Origin: Burkholderiaceae bacterium
Lineage (GTDB): Bacteria > Pseudomonadota > Gammaproteobacteria > Burkholderiales > Burkholderiaceae_E
Assembly (NCBI GenBank): GCA_023384005.1
Contig: JAHDXY010000014.1
Location: forward strand, 1 to 35,770
Direction of reading: 5' to 3'
Length of the DNA stretch: 35,770 bases
The notes beneath the pieces are model-generated. The model did not search any database. It was given only the letters and a program-made list of their open reading frames with translations, and was not told the DNA's origin. A program made the position numbers and the translations under genes. Shown piece by piece: positions 3,828-20,967 of the stretch (its first letter is position 1; the number at the start of each line of letters is the position of its first letter).

Positions 3828-5207
3828 ATGACTTTTGCGTTCTACGATCTCGAAACCACCGGCATCTCACCCGCCTTCGATCAGCCCCTGCAATTCGCCG
3901 CTATTCTGACGGATGCTGAATTCAGGGAGATCGAGCGCGTCAATCTGCGTTGCCGCATCGCGCCCCACATCATTCCCTCGCCATGGGCGCTGGCGGTCAC
4001 CGGTGTGCGTCCAGCGCAGCTGCTGGATCCGGAACTGCCGTTGCTCTTCGAGTTCACCCAAGCTATCGCGGCCCTGATCGCGCGCTGGTCACCTGCCACC
4101 TGGACCGGGTTCAACAGCATCCATTTCGACGAAGAGATGCTGCGCCAGGCCTTCTATCAGAACCTGCAGCCCGACATTTTCGCCACCCAGTTCAACGGGA
4201 ACAATCGGCTCGATATTCTGACGGCGCTCTATGCGGTCTGGTATCGTCAACCTGATCTCTTCGAATGGCCCGTGGATGAAACCGGCCGCGTGCGCTTCAA
4301 GCTGGATCGCATTGCGCCGCTGAATGGCTTGGCGGCGCATAATGCCCATGACGCGCTCGGTGACGTCGAGGCGACGATCCACATCGCGCGCCAGATCGCC
4401 CAGCGCGCGCCAGAGCTCTGGGCAGAGCTCCTGTCCAACCGCGACAAGGGATTGGTGCGGGCGCGCCTCGCGAGCTTCCAGCCCATGGCCCTCGTCGAGC
4501 GCTTCGCAGGCGGTCCGCCCCGCGCGACAATCGGTTGCTTCTGCGGCACGTCGGCCAGCAACCCCAACCAGGCCGCCTTCTTCGATCTCGACGCTGCGGA
4601 TCCGGCAGAGCTTCTGGTTGCTGATGATGCCACTGTTTTTGCAGCGGTGGACGCATCACCCAAGGTCATCCGCTCCCTGAGCATCAACAAGTCACCCGCG
4701 CTTCTCTCCGTGCCTGCTCCCAGCGCCGAGCATCTGCAGCGGGCCGCGGTCATCGCGCAGGCGCCAGAGTTCAGGGCGCGCGTTGCAGAGGCGCTGGCCG
4801 CGCGCTTCCCCAAGGATCCAGCCGCGCCGACGCCGCCCGTTGAAAAGCAGATCTTCGGGGGCTTCTACAGTCAAGCCGACAAGGCGCTGCTTACAGAGTT
4901 CCAGCGCGCAGACTGGCGGCGGCGTCAGGAGATCGTCACCACCCTCAGCGACGCCCGGCTGCGCCAGCTAGGGCGGCGGCTGGTGGCGTTTCACGCGCCC
5001 GAGCTGCTCTCGCCTGAAGAGCGCGCACAGTACGAAGCCTGGCTGGAAGGCCGCTGGTCGGCCGCAGACGTCCCTGAGATCGAGTGGACAGGCAAACACC
5101 GTGCCGATGCGGCACTCGTGGAGATGCGGACCAATGGGGGAGTCGATCTGGGGCTGGTCGACGAGATCGAGGCCTACCTGCAAGACTTTGTTGTAGCCCG
5201 TAGCTGA
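3828..5207 (+). CDS. sbcB: Exonuclease I (SbcB)-like DnaQ-fold 3'-5' exonuclease
   Basis: FYDLETTGISPAFDQPLQFAA (ExoI motif), PSPWALAVTGVRP, GFNSIHFDEEMLRQAFYQNL, NGNNRLDIL, WPVDETGRVRFKLDRIAPLNGLAAHNAHDALGDVEATI. Confidence 0.88.
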   Translation: MTFAFYDLETTGISPAFDQPLQFAAILTDAEFREIERVNLRCRIAPHIIPSPWALAVTGVRPAQLLDPELPLLFEFTQAIAALIARWSPATWTGFNSIHFDEEMLRQAFYQNLQPDIFATQFNGNNRLDILTALYAVWYRQPDLFEWPVDETGRVRFKLDRIAPLNGLAAHNAHDALGDVEATIHIARQIAQRAPELWAELLSNRDKGLVRARLASFQPMALVERFAGGPPRATIGCFCGTSASNPNQAAFFDLDAADPAELLVADDATVFAAVDASPKVIRSLSINKSPALLSVPAPSAEHLQRAAVIAQAPEFRARVAEALAARFPKDPAAPTPPVEKQIFGGFYSQADKALLTEFQRADWRRRQEIVTTLSDARLRQLGRRLVAFHAPELLSPEERAQYEAWLEGRWSAADVPEIEWTGKHRADAALVEMRTNGGVDLGLVDEIEAYLQDFVVARS

Positions 5208-5299: not shown

Positions 5300-6178
5300 G
5301 TGTCAGGCAAGAAGGCGAAGCAGCTGAATTGGAGTGCATCGAGGCGCAACGAGTTCATCGAGTTCCGGGTGTTCTGGCATGGCCGGATCAACCGCGCTGA
5401 CCTGATGGATACCTTCGGTATCTCGCTGCAGCAGGCATCGCTCGACCTGACACGTTACTCCGAACGCTGGAAGCGGAACCTCGTCTACGACAAGAGCCAG
5501 CGCGCCTATGTCCGCGGCAAGGCTTTCAAGCCACGCTTCATCACTGCCAGCGCCGAGGATTATTTCGCTCAGTTGCGCGCCGTCGATCAGGGCCTGGTCT
5601 CGCCGGATCAGAGCTGGATCAGCGTGTTTCCAAGCTATGGTGCGACGCCAACACCTGCGCGCGGGGTCGCGCCCGAGACATTGCGAGATGTTCTGGCTGC
5701 GATCCATGCGCCCGCTGCCCTTGAGATAACCTACCAGTCCATGTCCCGCCCGGAGCCCAGCGCACGCTGGATCGAACCGCATGCGCTGGCGTTCGACGGG
5801 TTCCGCTGGCACGCTCGTGCGTTTTGCCAGAACGACCAGGTGTTCAAGGACTTCCTGCTGTCGAGGATCGTCGAGATCGGAAAGCAGGGTCCCGTCACGG
5901 CTGATTCTCAGGCTGACACAGAGTGGCACACCGAGGCTGTACTGGAGATCGGCCCGCATCCTGACCTCTCACCAACCCAGCGCCGCGCAATCGAGATGGA
6001 TTACGGGATGGACGGGGGCAGGGCGCAGATCCCGGTGCGCCGGGCACTCTTGTTCTATGCGCTCAAGCGTCTCGGCCTGGACACCGACCCCGCGGCGCGG
6101 CGGCCGCAGGATCAGCAAATCGTACTGGTGAATTCTGACAGGGTGTTTGGCGCGCCCTCGTCAGCCCCGGCGAGATAG
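5300..6178 (+). CDS. WYL-domain transcriptional regulator (BrxR/CapW-like), GTG start
   Basis: N-terminal winged-HTH region (RRNEFIEFRVFWHGRINRADLMDTFGISLQQASLDLTRY); WYL-type region ALEITYQSMSRPEPSARWIEPHALAFDGFRWHARAFCQNDQVFKDFLLSRI; SD-like aggaaggga upstream. Confidence 0.88.
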   Translation: MSGKKAKQLNWSASRRNEFIEFRVFWHGRINRADLMDTFGISLQQASLDLTRYSERWKRNLVYDKSQRAYVRGKAFKPRFITASAEDYFAQLRAVDQGLVSPDQSWISVFPSYGATPTPARGVAPETLRDVLAAIHAPAALEITYQSMSRPEPSARWIEPHALAFDGFRWHARAFCQNDQVFKDFLLSRIVEIGKQGPVTADSQADTEWHTEAVLEIGPHPDLSPTQRRAIEMDYGMDGGRAQIPVRRALLFYALKRLGLDTDPAARRPQDQQIVLVNSDRVFGAPSSAPAR

Positions 6179-14116: not shown

Positions 14117-17100
14117 ATGGCACGCAAACCTGTCATCGACATGTCCGCATGGCCTTCCCTGTCGCTCGAAGGGAACCTGATCGCGCCCGCGATGGTCGCG
14201 CAGATCGCCGCGCCGGGCGAGTCTGACGATACCCGTGCGGGCTATCGCGTCCGCAAGGGACTGACGATCCGCGAAGAAATCTCTACCGCCTTCCGTGTCG
14301 GCCAGTCGCATTTCGACGCGTTCACCCGGCTAGAGAACCCCTCGGCCGAGGTGACACGCCGCTTCATCAAGGCATTCCTGGCCGAGACCTTCGGCTTCGA
14401 CGACCTGGCCCCCGGCAACGGTGTCACGGCCTTCATCGCAGGCGACCGCGTGCCGGTCGTCGTCGTTCCGCCGTCGGAGGAAAAGCTCGACCGTCGCAGC
14501 CCGACCTTGTCGGTAGATCGCTCCCGCTCGCCTGCCTTCGCGCTTCAGGACTACCTGAACGACCACGATCACGCGCTCTGGGGCCTCGTGACCAACGGCA
14601 CCCTGATCCGGCTGATGCGCGACAACGCCTCGCTCACCCGGCCAGCCTATATCGAAGCTGACCTCACCCAGATCTTCACCAATGAGGACGCCGCCTCCTT
14701 CGCCGTCCTCTGGCTTCTGATCCACCGCACCCGCTTCGGCACCGCTGGCACGCCCGCCACAGATTGCGCGCTGGAACGCTGGCGTGATGCCGGCGCGAAA
14801 GAGGGCGAAGCGGCCCGCGACAAGCTGGCGGGCCAGGTGGAAAAGGCGCTGAAGATCCTCGGCTCCGGCTTCCTCGAGGCCAACCCGGACCTCGCCAAAA
14901 GCCTCACCTCGGGCGAGGTGAACCTGACCGACTGGTTCAACGAGCTCCTCCGCCTCGTCTACCGCCTGATCTTCCTGATGGTGGCCGAGGACCGCAACCT
15001 CCTCCACCCCGAGAAAGCCTCCACCAACGCCCGCAAGCTCTATGCCGAGGGCTACAGCCTCGCCCACCTGCGCGCCCAGTGCTTTCGCGCGGCGACCTGG
15101 GACAAACACCACGACCGCTTCGAGGGCGTGAAGATCGTCTTCCGCGCCCTTGCCGATGGCCAACCCGCCCTCGCGCTCCCGGCCCTCGGCGGGCTCTTTG
15201 CCGCCGATCGTCTGCCCCACCTCGAAACCGCCCGCCTGCGCAACCGCGCTTTCATGGAGGCGCTCTACCGCCTCTCCTGGCTTGACCAGAAAACCGGCAT
15301 GGTCCCGGTCAATTGGCGCGCGATGGAGACCGAGGAACTGGGCTCCGTCTACGAATCCCTCCTCGAGCTGCAGCCCCAGCTGGGCGATGACGGCAAGACC
15401 CTGCTCTTCGCCTCCGAGGCCGCCGAGCAGAAGGGCAACCAGCGCAAGACCACCGGCTCTTATTACACGCCCGACAGCCTGGTTCAGGCGCTGCTCGACA
15501 CAGCCCTCGACCCCGTCCTCGACAAGACCGAGGCCGAGGCCGACGATCCGGCCAAGGCGCTGCTGAAACTGTCGGTCATCGACCCCGCCTGCGGATCGGG
15601 CCACTTCCTGCTGGCCGCCGCCCGCCGCATTGCCACGCGGCTGGCGCGCATCCGCGCCGATGGCACGCCCTCGCTCGCCGATTTCCGCCACGCCCTGCGC
15701 GATGTCGCGCGGTCCTGCCTGCACGGGGTGGACCGCAACCCGATGGCGGTGGAGCTGAGCAAGGTCGCGCTCTGGATCGAGACGGTGGACCCCGGCCTTC
15801 CCCTCGGCTTCTTCGACGCGCAGATCCGCTGCGGGGATGCGCTGCTGGGCGTGTTCGACCTGAAGGTTCTGCAGGACGGCATCCCCGATGCCGCCTACAA
15901 GCCGCTGACGGGCGACGACAAGGAAACCGCGAAATACTACCTCAAGGCCAATCGCGACGCGAAGGCGGGGCAGGGCGGTTTCGATTTCGGCACCGGGCAA
16001 GCCTCCCTGCCGGCGATGAAACCGCTGGCGCTGGATTTCTCGGGCTTCCGCGACCTGCCCGAGGATACGGTGGAGCAGATCGGGGCCAAGGCCGCGCGGT
16101 TCAAGGAACTGCGCAAGGGGCAGGCATTTGTGCGGGCGACGGCGGCGGCGAACCTGTATGTCGCGGCCTTCCTGCTGCCCAAGGTGGGTGGCGCACCGGC
16201 GGGGGCCTCGGCCCGCACCGTGCCGACGACCGAAGAGCTGTGGCTGGCCCTCAATCAGGGCAAGATCCGTCAGGCGATGATGGATGCACCCAAGGCCGCC
16301 CGCCGCGCCCGCGCCTTTCACTGGCCGCTCGAGTTCCCCGATGTGATGCAGCGCGGCGGGTTCGACGTGGTGCTGGGCAACCCGCCGTGGGAGGTAATGC
16401 AGGTTTCTGATCGAGAGTTCTTTTCAAATACCTATCCCGATATCGCATCACTCTCAGGTGCTGCGCGAAAGAAGAGAATTGATGATCTGCAGATTACAGC
16501 CCCGAAGCTTTACGTCGAATACAACCTTGAACGACGGAGGCAGGAGGCTTCCAACGATTTCTACCGCGATTCGAACCGCTTCCCGCTTTGCTCCCAAGGG
16601 AAGATGAACACTTTTGCTCTCTTCACCGAACTATCTTTCTTGGTGAAATCCAAACGGGGCAGAGTTGGGATAATTGTTCCAACTGGAATCGCGTTTTCCG
16701 ATGCAACTTCGGCCTTCTTCAGGAACTTGATTGTGCAGCGCCAGTTAATCTCGCTGTTTTCATTCTATGAGACAAGGTATTGGTTCACACAAACAGATGA
16801 CAAGAACTCGTTCTGCCTACTTACACTTGGGAGTTCAGATGGAGATCCTGAGTTTGTTTTTGATGCAAGACCCATAAGCGATTTATTGGATGTAGATCGC
16901 CGGTTCTCGTTGAGCGCAGAGGAAATCGCTGCAATTAACCCGGACTCCGGAGTTGCGCCAATCTTCAAGTCACGAGCTGACGCTGAATTGGCGAAGAAGA
17001 TATTCGCACCCCTATTCTCTTTAGAACGCCCAGAAGAGTGGCTTTCTCTAAAACAGAATGTCTTTTCATCGTCCTTGCCCGATGACCTGACACAGTTCCA

Positions 17101-17899
17101 GGACGTTTCGAAGTCTGCCGACAGTGTCGCGGTATTCAGGGGAAGCTTTTTCCATCAATACGAAGTTTCTTCGATCTTGGGAGTTCACAATGAGGATTCA
17201 GCAGCCGAGCCTTCTGATAAATATGTGTCTCCAGCCTTCTACAAAACCAGGATGGCTCGGAAGGAAATCCGACCAGAGTATCACCTAGCAATACGACGAA
17301 TTGCAAGATCCTCGGATGTGCGAACTATGATTGCCGCGATCTTGCCAATGGTTGCAACGGATGACACTGCCTCTGTGATCTCCGTCGTGGGCGGAGTTTT
17401 GCTCGAAGCTGCCGCGTTGGCCAACTTAAATTCACTTGTTTTGGACTACACCTGTGGGTTCAAGATCGGCGGGACAGACATCCGCAAACACAATTTCTCT
17501 CAATTGCCGTTCCTGCCACCATCCCGATATCGACCGGAACATTTTGCCTTCATCACCCCGAAGGTGCTGGAACTCACCTACACCTCGCATAGCCTCGCCC
17601 CCTTCGCCCGCGATCTGGGCCATGACGGCCCTCCCTTCGCCTGGGACGAGGACCGCCGCGCCCTCCTGCGCGCCGATCTCGACGCCTTCTACGCCCGCGC
17701 CTATGGCCTGACCCGCGACGAGCTGCGCTACATCCTCGACCCCGCCGACGTGAAGGGCCCCGACTACCCCTCGGAAACCTTCCGCGTGCTGAAGGAAAAG
17801 GAAATCCGCCAACACGGCGAATACCGCACCCGCCGCCTCGTCCTCGCCGCCTGGGACCGGATGGAAGAGAGCGGCGAGTTTGCCGCGATGGGGATGTGA
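14117..17899 (+). CDS. Eco57I/PglX-type N6-adenine DNA methyltransferase (DISARM DrmMI-like)
   Basis: GSYYTPDSLVQALLDTALDPV, motif I VIDPACGSGHFLLAAARRIATRLA, HGVDRNPMAVELSKVALWIE, motif IV VVLGNPPWEVMQ. N-terminal GLVTNGTLIRLMRDNASL...FAVLWLLIHRTRF. Confidence 0.92.
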   Translation: MARKPVIDMSAWPSLSLEGNLIAPAMVAQIAAPGESDDTRAGYRVRKGLTIREEISTAFRVGQSHFDAFTRLENPSAEVTRRFIKAFLAETFGFDDLAPGNGVTAFIAGDRVPVVVVPPSEEKLDRRSPTLSVDRSRSPAFALQDYLNDHDHALWGLVTNGTLIRLMRDNASLTRPAYIEADLTQIFTNEDAASFAVLWLLIHRTRFGTAGTPATDCALERWRDAGAKEGEAARDKLAGQVEKALKILGSGFLEANPDLAKSLTSGEVNLTDWFNELLRLVYRLIFLMVAEDRNLLHPEKASTNARKLYAEGYSLAHLRAQCFRAATWDKHHDRFEGVKIVFRALADGQPALALPALGGLFAADRLPHLETARLRNRAFMEALYRLSWLDQKTGMVPVNWRAMETEELGSVYESLLELQPQLGDDGKTLLFASEAAEQKGNQRKTTGSYYTPDSLVQALLDTALDPVLDKTEAEADDPAKALLKLSVIDPACGSGHFLLAAARRIATRLARIRADGTPSLADFRHALRDVARSCLHGVDRNPMAVELSKVALWIETVDPGLPLGFFDAQIRCGDALLGVFDLKVLQDGIPDAAYKPLTGDDKETAKYYLKANRDAKAGQGGFDFGTGQASLPAMKPLALDFSGFRDLPEDTVEQIGAKAARFKELRKGQAFVRATAAANLYVAAFLLPKVGGAPAGASARTVPTTEELWLALNQGKIRQAMMDAPKAARRARAFHWPLEFPDVMQRGGFDVVLGNPPWEVMQVSDREFFSNTYPDIASLSGAARKKRIDDLQITAPKLYVEYNLERRRQEASNDFYRDSNRFPLCSQGKMNTFALFTELSFLVKSKRGRVGIIVPTGIAFSDATSAFFRNLIVQRQLISLFSFYETRYWFTQTDDKNSFCLLTLGSSDGDPEFVFDARPISDLLDVDRRFSLSAEEIAAINPDSGVAPIFKSRADAELAKKIFAPLFSLERPEEWLSLKQNVFSSSLPDDLTQFQDVSKSADSVAVFRGSFFHQYEVSSILGVHNEDSAAEPSDKYVSPAFYKTRMARKEIRPEYHLAIRRIARSSDVRTMIAAILPMVATDDTASVISVVGGVLLEAAALANLNSLVLDYTCGFKIGGTDIRKHNFSQLPFLPPSRYRPEHFAFITPKVLELTYTSHSLAPFARDLGHDGPPFAWDEDRRALLRADLDAFYARAYGLTRDELRYILDPADVKGPDYPSETFRVLKEKEIRQHGEYRTRRLVLAAWDRMEESGEFAAMGM

Positions 17900-18696
17900 T
17901 GATCGAGGCGCCCCAGTCCTTCGTGGTCCGCGAGGAATGCGAAAAGGCCGCCTGGCAGAACGGCTTTCGCCGCCCCTTCGGCGGCCCGCCGGGCTGGGCT
18001 GGTTTCGCCTCGACCACGGTGCCGGGGACGATCCATCTTGCGGCCGGGGGCCCGCAAGGACCGTGGTATCTGGCGCTGGACCATGGCGGCGTGATCGAGG
18101 AACTGGCACTGCCCCCCGCCGCGCTGTCCGGGCCCGGCCTCGCGCGCCATGCCTTCGACACCCTGCGCGATCTTTATGGCGCGCTGTCGCGCGTGTATCA
18201 GCTCTCCGCCAGCCTGCCCGATGCGCCGCTCCGGCAGTTCGAGCAGAAGGTCCGGTCCTTGCCGCAGACGACCGAGGCCGAGCGGCTGGTGGTGCAACGG
18301 ATCGGCCAGTACATCTTCCGCGCCAGTCTGCTGGAGTATTGGCAGGGAACCTGTCCCTTGACGGGGATCTCGGACCCCGCGCTCCTGCGTGCATCGCACA
18401 TCGTACCGTGGAGAGTCTGCGAGACGGACGCCCAGCGCCTCGATGTGCATAACGGGCTGTTGCTGTCCGCCTTGTGGGACGCCGCGTTCGATCAGGGTCT
18501 TGTGACGTTTTCGGACGAGGGAACGCCGGTGTTCTCGTCCGCGCTCAGCGAGGCGGCCCGTCAAGAGCTGCGATGGGGGGCGGGGCTGACCTTGACCGAC
18601 CGTCAGCGTGAGAACCTGGCCTGGCATCGCGTGCACGCGTTCCGCAGCGATGCCGCGGCCACCCAAAAACAGACCCCGACAAATTCCGTGAACTGA
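17899..18696 (+). CDS. HNH endonuclease (HNH_2-type)
   Basis: GTCPLTGISDPALLRASHIVPWRVCETDAQRLDVHNGLLLSALWDAAFDQGLVTF. ATG at 17899 overlaps the MTase stop (TGATG); alternative GTG start at 17896. Confidence 0.88.
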   Translation: MIEAPQSFVVREECEKAAWQNGFRRPFGGPPGWAGFASTTVPGTIHLAAGGPQGPWYLALDHGGVIEELALPPAALSGPGLARHAFDTLRDLYGALSRVYQLSASLPDAPLRQFEQKVRSLPQTTEAERLVVQRIGQYIFRASLLEYWQGTCPLTGISDPALLRASHIVPWRVCETDAQRLDVHNGLLLSALWDAAFDQGLVTFSDEGTPVFSSALSEAARQELRWGAGLTLTDRQRENLAWHRVHAFRSDAAATQKQTPTNSVN

Positions 18697-18708: not shown

Positions 18709-20967
18709 ATGACGATCTTCACGACAACCAGTTATCCCGTGGGCGCCTTGATCGCCGATATTGACCTGGGAAAGGTCGGGCTGCCGGATCTGCAACGTCC
18801 TTTTGTCTGGCGGAACGTGAAAGTCAGGAACCTGTTTGACTCGCTCTACAAGGGCTATCCGGCAGGATTTCTGTTGTTCTGGGACACCGGGGCGGAGGGC
18901 GGTCTGAAAGGGATCGGGGCGAAGAACAACAAGGCCGTGCCGAGGCTTGCTATCGTTGACGGTCAGCAGCGGCTGACCTCGCTTTATGCCGTGATAAAGG
19001 GCGAGGAGGTGATTCGGGCGAATTTCAAGAAAGAGCGCATTCGGATCGCCTTCAACCCGCTGACCGAGCGTTTCGCAGTCTGGGATGCGGCGATCGTGAA
19101 GGACAAATCCTTCATCCCCGATATCTCCGAGCTCTGGCGGCCCGAGGCGAATGTCTTCTCGATTGCCAGTGATTTTCTCGATGAGCTGTCTGCCGTGCGC
19201 GAGGTATCGGATGCGGACAAGAAGAAGATCCAGAATGCCATCGGCAAGCTGATCGCTCTGCCCAATCAGTATTCCTTTACCGCCTTGACGCTGTCCGCAA
19301 CTGTTGATGGGGCGACTGTGGCGGATGTGTTTGTGCGGATCAACGGGGAAGGCAAGCAACTCAACCAGTCCGACTTCATCATGACGTTGATGTCGGTCTA
19401 TTGGGACGAAGGGCGAGCAGAGCTGGAGGCCTTCGCCGGCGCAGCGACAAAGCCGCACGATGGCCAAGCTTCTCCTTTCAACCACTTCATCAAGCCTGCA
19501 CCCGACCAGATGTTGCGCACGACGATCGGCCTGGCGCTGAAGCGCGCAAGGCTTGAGAACGTCTACAATGCGCTGCGTGGCCGCGATGCCAAGACCGGCA
19601 TCGACAACCCGGAAAAGCGGGATGAACAGTTTCAGAGAATGCAGGCCGCACAGGCAGCGGCGCTGGACCTGACGAACTGGCACCACTTCCTTAGCGCGTT
19701 GACGCTGGCGGGATATCGTGGCGAGAAGATGATCAGTTCGGAAACGGCGGTCATCTACAGCTACGTGCTCTATCTGGTCGGCATCGTGGATTATGGCATC
19801 GACAAGCAGTCGATGCGCCAGGCCATTGCTGAATACTTCTTCATGGCGGCCCTGACCGGCCGCTACACGAACTCTCCGGAGACGCGCTTTGAAGCAGACC
19901 TTGCTCTGGTTCGGGATCTGCCAGACGGAAAAGCCTACCTGGCGAAGCTGCGCGACATCTGTGCAACGACGCTGACGCCCGATTACTGGAGCATTACGCT
20001 GCCCAGCCAGCTTGCGACCTCAGCTTCGCAGAGCCCTTCGCTCTTCGCCTACAACGCGTCGCTGATCAAGCTTGACGCAGATGCGCTCTACAGCCCGGTT
20101 AAAATCGCGAGCCTCGTCGATCCCGCCGTGAAGGGAACCAAGGTTGCCCTCGAGCGGCATCATCTGTTCCCGCGCGCCTACCTTGAGGAGAATGGCATCA
20201 GGGAACTGAAAAAGATCAATCAGATCGCGAATTTTGCGCCGGTGGAGTGGCCCGAGAACATTCGCATCGGTAAGCAGGCTCCGTCTGCCTATGTGCCACC
20301 GCTGGACGCTGCGCTCTCCGCCGAAAAGCGCAGCCAGCTCTATTTCTGGCATGCTCTTCCGCACCTCTGGTGGGAGATGCCCTACGAGGCATTTCTGGTC
20401 GAGCGGAGAGAGCGCATGGCGCGGGTCATCGAAGCCGCCTGGAAGCTCCTCAAGGGCGATGGCCCTGCAGTGGCTGCGACCGAAATCAGCGTGGCCGAAC
20501 TGATCGAGTCTGGCGAAACAGATGCGGTCGAGTTCAAATCTACGCTGCGGGTCAACCTTCACACAGGTCAGCAAGATGACAAGATTCAGGTGTCGGCCCT
20601 GAAGACTATCGCGGGCTTCCTGAACGCCAAGGGCGGGACGCTGCTTATCGGGGTAGCCGATGACGGTGAGGTTCTTGGCCTCGAAGCCGATGGTTTTCCA
20701 AACGAAGACAAGATGGCCCTGCATCTGACGAACCTGATCACGTCGCGCCTGGGGGATGTTTTCCGGCCGTATGTTCACCCTCGGTTCGAGGAGCAAGATG
20801 GTGTTCGGGTGCTGCTGGTGCGGTGTGAGCCCGGTCCTCGCGAAGCTTTTCTCAAGGATGGCCAGCTCCAGCGCTTCTTTGTTCGCGGCGGCAATGCGAC
20901 GGCTGAACTGCAGGGGAATGCCATCACGGAATACGTCAAGCAGCGGTTCGGCAGAATCTCGAGTTAG
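18709..20967 (+). CDS. DUF262 + DUF1524-like HNH (GmrSD-like) protein with C-terminal AlbA_2 (Schlafen-type) domain
   Basis: LPDLQRPFVWRNVKVRNLFDSLYKGYPAGFLLFW and IVDGQQRLTSLYAV (GmrS DGQQR motif); LERHHLFPRAYLEENG (HxxFP, GmrD/DUF1524-like); ESGETDAVEFKSTL...LKTIAGFLNAKGGTLLIGVADDGEVLGLE (AlbA_2). Confidence 0.88.
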   Translation: MTIFTTTSYPVGALIADIDLGKVGLPDLQRPFVWRNVKVRNLFDSLYKGYPAGFLLFWDTGAEGGLKGIGAKNNKAVPRLAIVDGQQRLTSLYAVIKGEEVIRANFKKERIRIAFNPLTERFAVWDAAIVKDKSFIPDISELWRPEANVFSIASDFLDELSAVREVSDADKKKIQNAIGKLIALPNQYSFTALTLSATVDGATVADVFVRINGEGKQLNQSDFIMTLMSVYWDEGRAELEAFAGAATKPHDGQASPFNHFIKPAPDQMLRTTIGLALKRARLENVYNALRGRDAKTGIDNPEKRDEQFQRMQAAQAAALDLTNWHHFLSALTLAGYRGEKMISSETAVIYSYVLYLVGIVDYGIDKQSMRQAIAEYFFMAALTGRYTNSPETRFEADLALVRDLPDGKAYLAKLRDICATTLTPDYWSITLPSQLATSASQSPSLFAYNASLIKLDADALYSPVKIASLVDPAVKGTKVALERHHLFPRAYLEENGIRELKKINQIANFAPVEWPENIRIGKQAPSAYVPPLDAALSAEKRSQLYFWHALPHLWWEMPYEAFLVERRERMARVIEAAWKLLKGDGPAVAATEISVAELIESGETDAVEFKSTLRVNLHTGQQDDKIQVSALKTIAGFLNAKGGTLLIGVADDGEVLGLEADGFPNEDKMALHLTNLITSRLGDVFRPYVHPRFEEQDGVRVLLVRCEPGPREAFLKDGQLQRFFVRGGNATAELQGNAITEYVKQRFGRISS

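Follow-up and report, generated by a model that had tools for sequence, protein, structure and literature searches.

An AT-rich exchangeable cassette beginning after motif IV in the methyltransferase of an ARMADA Type I-like operon

Why does a single methyltransferase gene change its base composition halfway through its reading frame, and then change back? The gene (P0001, 1260 aa; 14117..17899, + strand) lies in the window, by which we mean the whole 35,770-nt stretch of DNA analysed here, and encodes a PglX/DrmMI-like adenine DNA methyltransferase (Pfam Eco57I, 3e-17; PADLOC DrmMI, 2.5e-77). The original prediction described a continuous frame with a break in composition and codon usage at 16390-17545. 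Both descriptions hold: the frame is open throughout 14117-17899, the hand counts of G+C (45/60, 29/60 and 46/60) are exact on recount, and a two-breakpoint likelihood scan of GC3 delimits codons 760-1143 (16394-17545), with borders within ~10 codons of those claimed. GC3 is 0.52 inside this segment vs 0.87 outside. The likelihood gain was 86.9, whereas 200 shuffles of the codons never gave more than 13.4, and positions within 3 lnL units span codons 755-765 for the start and 1141-1152 for the end. Total GC is 0.48 in the segment and 0.68 elsewhere in the gene, and no other 1155-bp stretch of the window is as GC-poor (0.482; next non-overlapping stretch, 0.575). Since four-fold degenerate sites shift as well (GC of 0.91 in the N-terminal arm, 0.45 in the segment and 0.98 in the C-terminal arm), the change does not stem from amino-acid make-up.

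Does the drop record a replacement, as had been supposed? The drop itself is real, but it is a trait of the whole family: in 28/28 homologues, whatever the host, GC3 is lower in the central cassette than in the N arm (mean 0.59 vs 0.81; spread over the 28 homologues, 0.10 vs 0.04). The cassette pool is thus lastingly low in GC, and we rejected composition alone as proof or date of a transfer in this genome; it does not attest to one recent event. The uniformly low cassette GC3 hints at an additional intrinsic cause. The same uniformity would also suit a history without any exchange, in which the central region is under weak or diversifying selection and drifts in residues and codon usage lineage by lineage, and recognition domains are indeed known to evolve fast.

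Our genome scan yielded 27 loci, mostly from Alphaproteobacteria, with one from Verrucomicrobiota and one from a Pseudomonas bin; loci L089-L092 came from further genomes, and no E. coli relatives were found by DNA similarity. The 28 homologues combine conserved N and C arms with a divergent centre. Identity to the window protein is high up to residue 758, the last of the NPPW of motif IV, lies at ~0.15-0.45 from residue 760 and is high again from ~1150; the step at residue 760 runs from ~0.84-0.94 down to 0.2-0.4. The nearest homologues are 84-97% identical to the window in the arms and 15-45% in the cassette, and the first 25 homologues share 18-38% amino-acid identity with it in the cassette and, for most, 68-90% in the N arm. 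The forecast of conserved arms around a divergent centre, as opposed to uniform divergence along the protein, is thus borne out, with its edge at NPPW. In most comparisons this edge falls on the same codon or close to it; exceptions are a few pairs (e.g. L010/L016) whose similarity extends tens of codons beyond it, and L023/L025, which split earlier.

At the DNA level the transition is abrupt. Among L010, L016, L026, L006, L015 and L007, N arms are 93-95% identical and cassettes mostly 45-57% (67% for L015/L016); for L010/L016, L016/L026, L010/L026 and others, the succession reads 94-95% in the N arm, ~47-57% in the cassette and 94-96% in the C arm. Over six operons, mean identity is 0.88-0.97 along the 10 kb of helicases plus N arm; it falls to 0.47-0.56 for the cassette and recovers to 0.88 for the C arm, with dN/dS of ~0.03-0.07 in the conserved genes and parts. 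Drift alone sits poorly with so steep a fall, from ~95% to ~50% identity over a few tens of codons in genes whose arms otherwise match, and also with a variable stretch of the N arm (residues 601-640) in which GC3 stays at 0.80.

The phylogenies tell against drift as well. N-arm and cassette trees conflict in AU tests, whose p-values are descriptive because each group was picked with the other tree in view. Three cassette groups are rejected by the N-arm data: L092+L021+L028 (p-AU 2e-49), L008+L091 (3e-53) and window+L089 (1e-7). The cassette data in turn reject a seven-member clade of the N-arm tree (p 7.5e-6) as well as L013+L092 (2e-4), and did not significantly reject the N-arm clades L005+L014+L018+L019 (p 0.11) and L012+L023+L025 (0.83). 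L092 illustrates the conflict, with an N arm 85% identical to that of L013 and a cassette that shares only 23% with L013 and 73-77% with L021 and L028, members of another arm lineage. We therefore regard a history without exchange as very unlikely. On the sequence evidence, the cassette has been exchanged repeatedly between strains, with the rest of the operon almost unchanged. Cassettes of different ancestry between near-identical arms imply repeated replacement, which would have occurred by homologous recombination in the arms or by short-homology recombination at the codons of motif IV.

Could the mosaic instead be an artefact, two organisms joined by the assembler within the methyltransferase gene? 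The assembly is indeed a 507-contig draft whose contamination is estimated at 4.5%. Nevertheless, the frame runs uninterrupted over its full length, the C arm reverts to the same high-GC type, and the join recurs at the same codon in independent isolate genomes, all of which makes a chimaera barely credible. Programmed switching (phase variation), with silent cassettes or an invertible or recombinase-driven element in the same genome, would account for the cassette-like layout and its sharp edges, and an exact 12-nt direct repeat, ATCCCGATATCG, does lie near both cassette ends (16434-16445 and 17521-17532), although it may be there by chance. The spacing of the two copies is 1087, however, which is not a multiple of 3; the 507-contig draft holds no second cassette save that of an intact paralogue at 32-37% identity; 27 related genomes show no silent cassette next to the gene; and the sole inverted repeat found is a 12-nt pair with 92% complementarity. 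Switching of this kind is thus highly improbable.

What exactly is exchanged? The conserved N arm (residues 1-758; 14117..16390, + strand; GC3 0.87) carries SAM motif I (DPACGSGHF), shares 72-90% identity with most homologues and ends with motif IV (NPPW, residues 755-758, 16379-16390). The AT-rich cassette (residues 760-1143; 16394..17545, + strand), placed by both the GC3 breakpoints and the drop in homologue identity, begins right after this motif and stops ~110 residues before the C terminus. It is followed by a conserved, helical C arm (residues 1150-1260; 17564..17896, + strand) with a median identity of 0.90 to homologues and a pLDDT >83 in most blocks. An AlphaFold model of residues 231-1260 (m1a0f5851e0a5) is of moderate quality overall (pTM 0.48) and better in the cassette and C arm. 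After motif IV it predicts that the methyltransferase fold continues, followed by a second domain up to ~1135 and then by helices. The first cassette sub-module (residues 760-930; 16394..16906, + strand) is accordingly modelled as the C-terminal half of the catalytic domain, with a pLDDT mostly of 77-89 and strands at ~849-855, 877-883, 899-905 and 912-917. The second (residues ~931-1135; 16907..17521, + strand), located after the last catalytic strand and in the most variable stretch of the alignment, is the predicted target-recognition domain; the boundary between the two at ~930/931 is approximate, as it derives from a model of moderate quality. A dedicated model of the recognition domain was poor (pTM 0.31), and none of the Pfam recognition-domain families matched. 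Foldseek matched the larger model to PglX (8c45, 8q56), CamA, M.BseCI and M.TaqI, and the last three are adenine methyltransferases whose recognition domain follows the catalytic domain. PglX, too, is an adenine methyltransferase with a recognition domain C-terminal to the catalytic domain (PMC11341690).

According to this model, the cassette would consist of about ~170 residues of catalytic fold and ~200 residues of recognition domain. The recognition domain is thus predicted to lie inside the low-GC segment, in agreement with the original prediction. That recombination had swapped the specificity domain proved correct as to exchange, which the conflict between arm and cassette trees shows to be repeated, but too narrow as to the unit: as the cassette begins inside the catalytic domain, at motif IV, ~170 residues of catalytic fold would move together with the entire predicted recognition domain. 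So large a unit exceeds what a change of recognition needs and would fit a scenario in which exchange of the cassette is selected for a trait other than specificity, such as evasion of phage inhibitors binding to the methyltransferase (PglX is bound by DNA mimics such as Ocr). It is the recognition domain, however, that varies most (median homologue identity of 0.23 over residues 971-1143 vs 0.37 over 760-930), and in PglX the motif is set by the C-terminal domain (PMC11341690). We give inhibitor escape a slim chance and retain specificity as the probable object of the exchange. The two halves of the cassette can apparently also be shuffled separately: the recognition domains of the window and L089 share 58% over 971-1143 (every other homologue, <=33%), their catalytic halves are 39% identical and not nearest relatives, and their N arms belong to different lineages.

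A plasmid provides a more extreme case. Paracoccus marcusii plasmid pCP157_06 (L059) encodes the closest relatives found of the SNF2 helicase (90.5%) and the YprA-like helicase (84.1%) of the window. Its methyltransferase gene (L059:22272-24026) matches the window up to 16386, within the codons of motif IV; past this junction it has NPPY in place of NPPW and continues into a C half of unrelated sequence that ends at a stop of its own, and a C-arm-like remnant persists downstream as a separate frame. The sole relative found for this C half is a haloarchaeal plasmid methyltransferase (30%), with none in 397 genomes. L059 is therefore a case in which a half that is distantly related, or not orthologous, has been substituted at this very motif. 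For the window cassette no donor was found at high DNA identity: a plasmid search returned distant family members only (<=34%), and there were zero matches in phages or viral contigs.

To what kind of system does the enzyme belong? The operon consists, in order and all on the + strand, of a WYL-domain protein that is probably its regulator (5300..6178; Pfam WYL, 1.1e-11), a YprA/MrfA-like helicase (P0003, 6187..11343; Pfam DEAD 1e-23, Helicase_C and MZB 2.6e-9), a BrxHII/RapA-like SNF2 helicase (P0004, 11348..14113; Pfam SNF2-rel_dom and Helicase_C; PADLOC DpdE 2e-187, DrmD 2e-78 and BrxHII 1.1e-53; NCBIfam RapA 6e-40), the methyltransferase, an HNH endonuclease-like gene (17896..18696; Pfam HNH_2, 1.2e-11) and an accessory protein combining GmrSD_N with a Schlafen AlbA_2 domain (18709..20967; Pfam 3.5e-29 and 2.7e-16). 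The three large genes match ARMADA Type I, described in a preprint by Bell et al. 2025 (PMC12458937), in kind and in order, and the related loci share this order. P0003 falls to the Druantia-like branch of YprA helicases (best PADLOC match DruE, 1.9e-81), P0004 is the BrxHII/RapA-like helicase, and P0001 is the PglX-like methyltransferase with the NPPW of ArmB. Membership is likely; the Vsr-type nuclease tail reported for the ARMADA YprA was not seen, the C terminus of P0003 giving no Pfam match in a scan by sequence profiles alone. Unlike ARMADA Type I, window-type operons have a near-constant downstream HNH gene, present in nearly all related operons by neighbourhood comparison, and a variable cargo slot ahead of it.

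We considered two other assignments. PglX/BrxX of BREX shares the fold of P0001, in which a gamma-class adenine methyltransferase precedes a recognition domain, and is the specificity subunit that sets the motif for methylation and defence (PMC11341690); divergence of the pglX alignment between E. coli and Salmonella has been reported (PMC9009780). BREX itself was rejected, as the eight operon-region proteins scanned include no PglZ, BrxC or BrxL and scores were far below the NCBIfam BREX cut-offs. DISARM Class I (DrmMI, DrmD) has a homologous methyltransferase and SNF2 helicase, but separate DrmA and DrmB in place of the one fused YprA protein of the window; neither DrmB nor the PLD nuclease DrmC was matched among the operon proteins scanned, and the DrmD score of 291 is below the NCBIfam cut-off of 610. 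DISARM was accordingly rejected as well, for its components and its cut-offs alike.

Several features of the surroundings deserve mention. In related operons (L005-L030), a slot of 0 to ~2.5 kb separates the methyltransferase stop from the HNH gene; its contents differ per operon and, judged by eye, include SMC/Rad50-like, metallopeptidase-like, HD-hydrolase-like and CBS-domain-like genes; in the window the slot is empty, with the HNH start overlapping the methyltransferase stop. The window carries its GmrSD-AlbA gene downstream, whereas L007, L010, L015, L016 and L059 have a DUF262/GmrSD-like gene upstream of YprA, at the position of WYL in the window. Immediately upstream of the operon (3828-5207) is an Exonuclease I/SbcB-like gene whose top PADLOC match is an SbcB associated with defence reverse transcriptases (8.6e-160); the proteins scanned gave no sign of a reverse transcriptase. 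The same genome contains a second, diverged ARMADA-like locus (G000:C117; L099:2-19999), with identities to the window of 40% for YprA, 46% for SNF2, 40-51% for the methyltransferase and 55% for HNH. In L027 (Ruegeria atlantica), a TAG stop breaks the methyltransferase homologue.

How would exchange affect defence? Cassette identity is uncorrelated with that of any other part (Spearman 0.04 with YprA, -0.08 with SNF2, -0.12 with the N arm and -0.09 with HNH), and the other parts correlate among themselves (YprA-SNF2 0.92, YprA-N arm 0.66, SNF2-N arm 0.71, HNH-SNF2 0.75). It is mainly this decoupling that leads us to assign to the methyltransferase the role of specificity subunit for the operon as a whole. 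Since the remaining operon genes do not vary along with the cassette, we infer that each replacement would change both the DNA sequence that is methylated and the sequence attacked by the helicase and nuclease partners. The likeliest effect of exchange is thus that the defence can change its recognition sequence. We consider it highly probable that the account as a whole is correct, namely an ARMADA Type I-like anti-phage operon whose PglX-like methyltransferase combines two slowly evolving arms with an exchangeable post-motif-IV cassette, replaced by recombination, with a presumed change of specificity. Whether one may go further is, to us, an even bet: the ARMADA methyltransferase might be the only specificity subunit, the halves after motif IV an AT-rich interchangeable pool that spans alphaproteobacterial families and beyond and includes non-orthologous halves, and a swap of ~1.15 kb enough to re-aim a constant helicase/nuclease machine.

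Exchange of recognition domains is established elsewhere. In Type I and Type III systems these domains move by recombination at the DNA for conserved methyltransferase motifs, in Type III even between non-orthologous genes (Furuta and Kobayashi, as relayed in PMC3983042), and PglX is established as setting BREX specificity (PMC11341690). The window family likewise has conserved arms around a recognition region of different ancestry, but its recognition domain is C-terminal and the unit moved comprises half the catalytic domain as well. Relative to the open-access literature, we take as new that exchange takes place in ARMADA, that the unit moved is larger and has motif IV as its edge, that the cassette varies independently of every other gene in the operon, and that a plasmid carries a non-orthologous junction. 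Term searches on specificity and recombination in the preprint that named ARMADA (PMC12458937) found no description of target choice and no mention of cassette exchange. With one part varying and every other gene constant, the component that would sense the target becomes directly testable. The data also define where unrelated halves of such enzymes become joined in nature, namely at motif IV and where the C arm begins.
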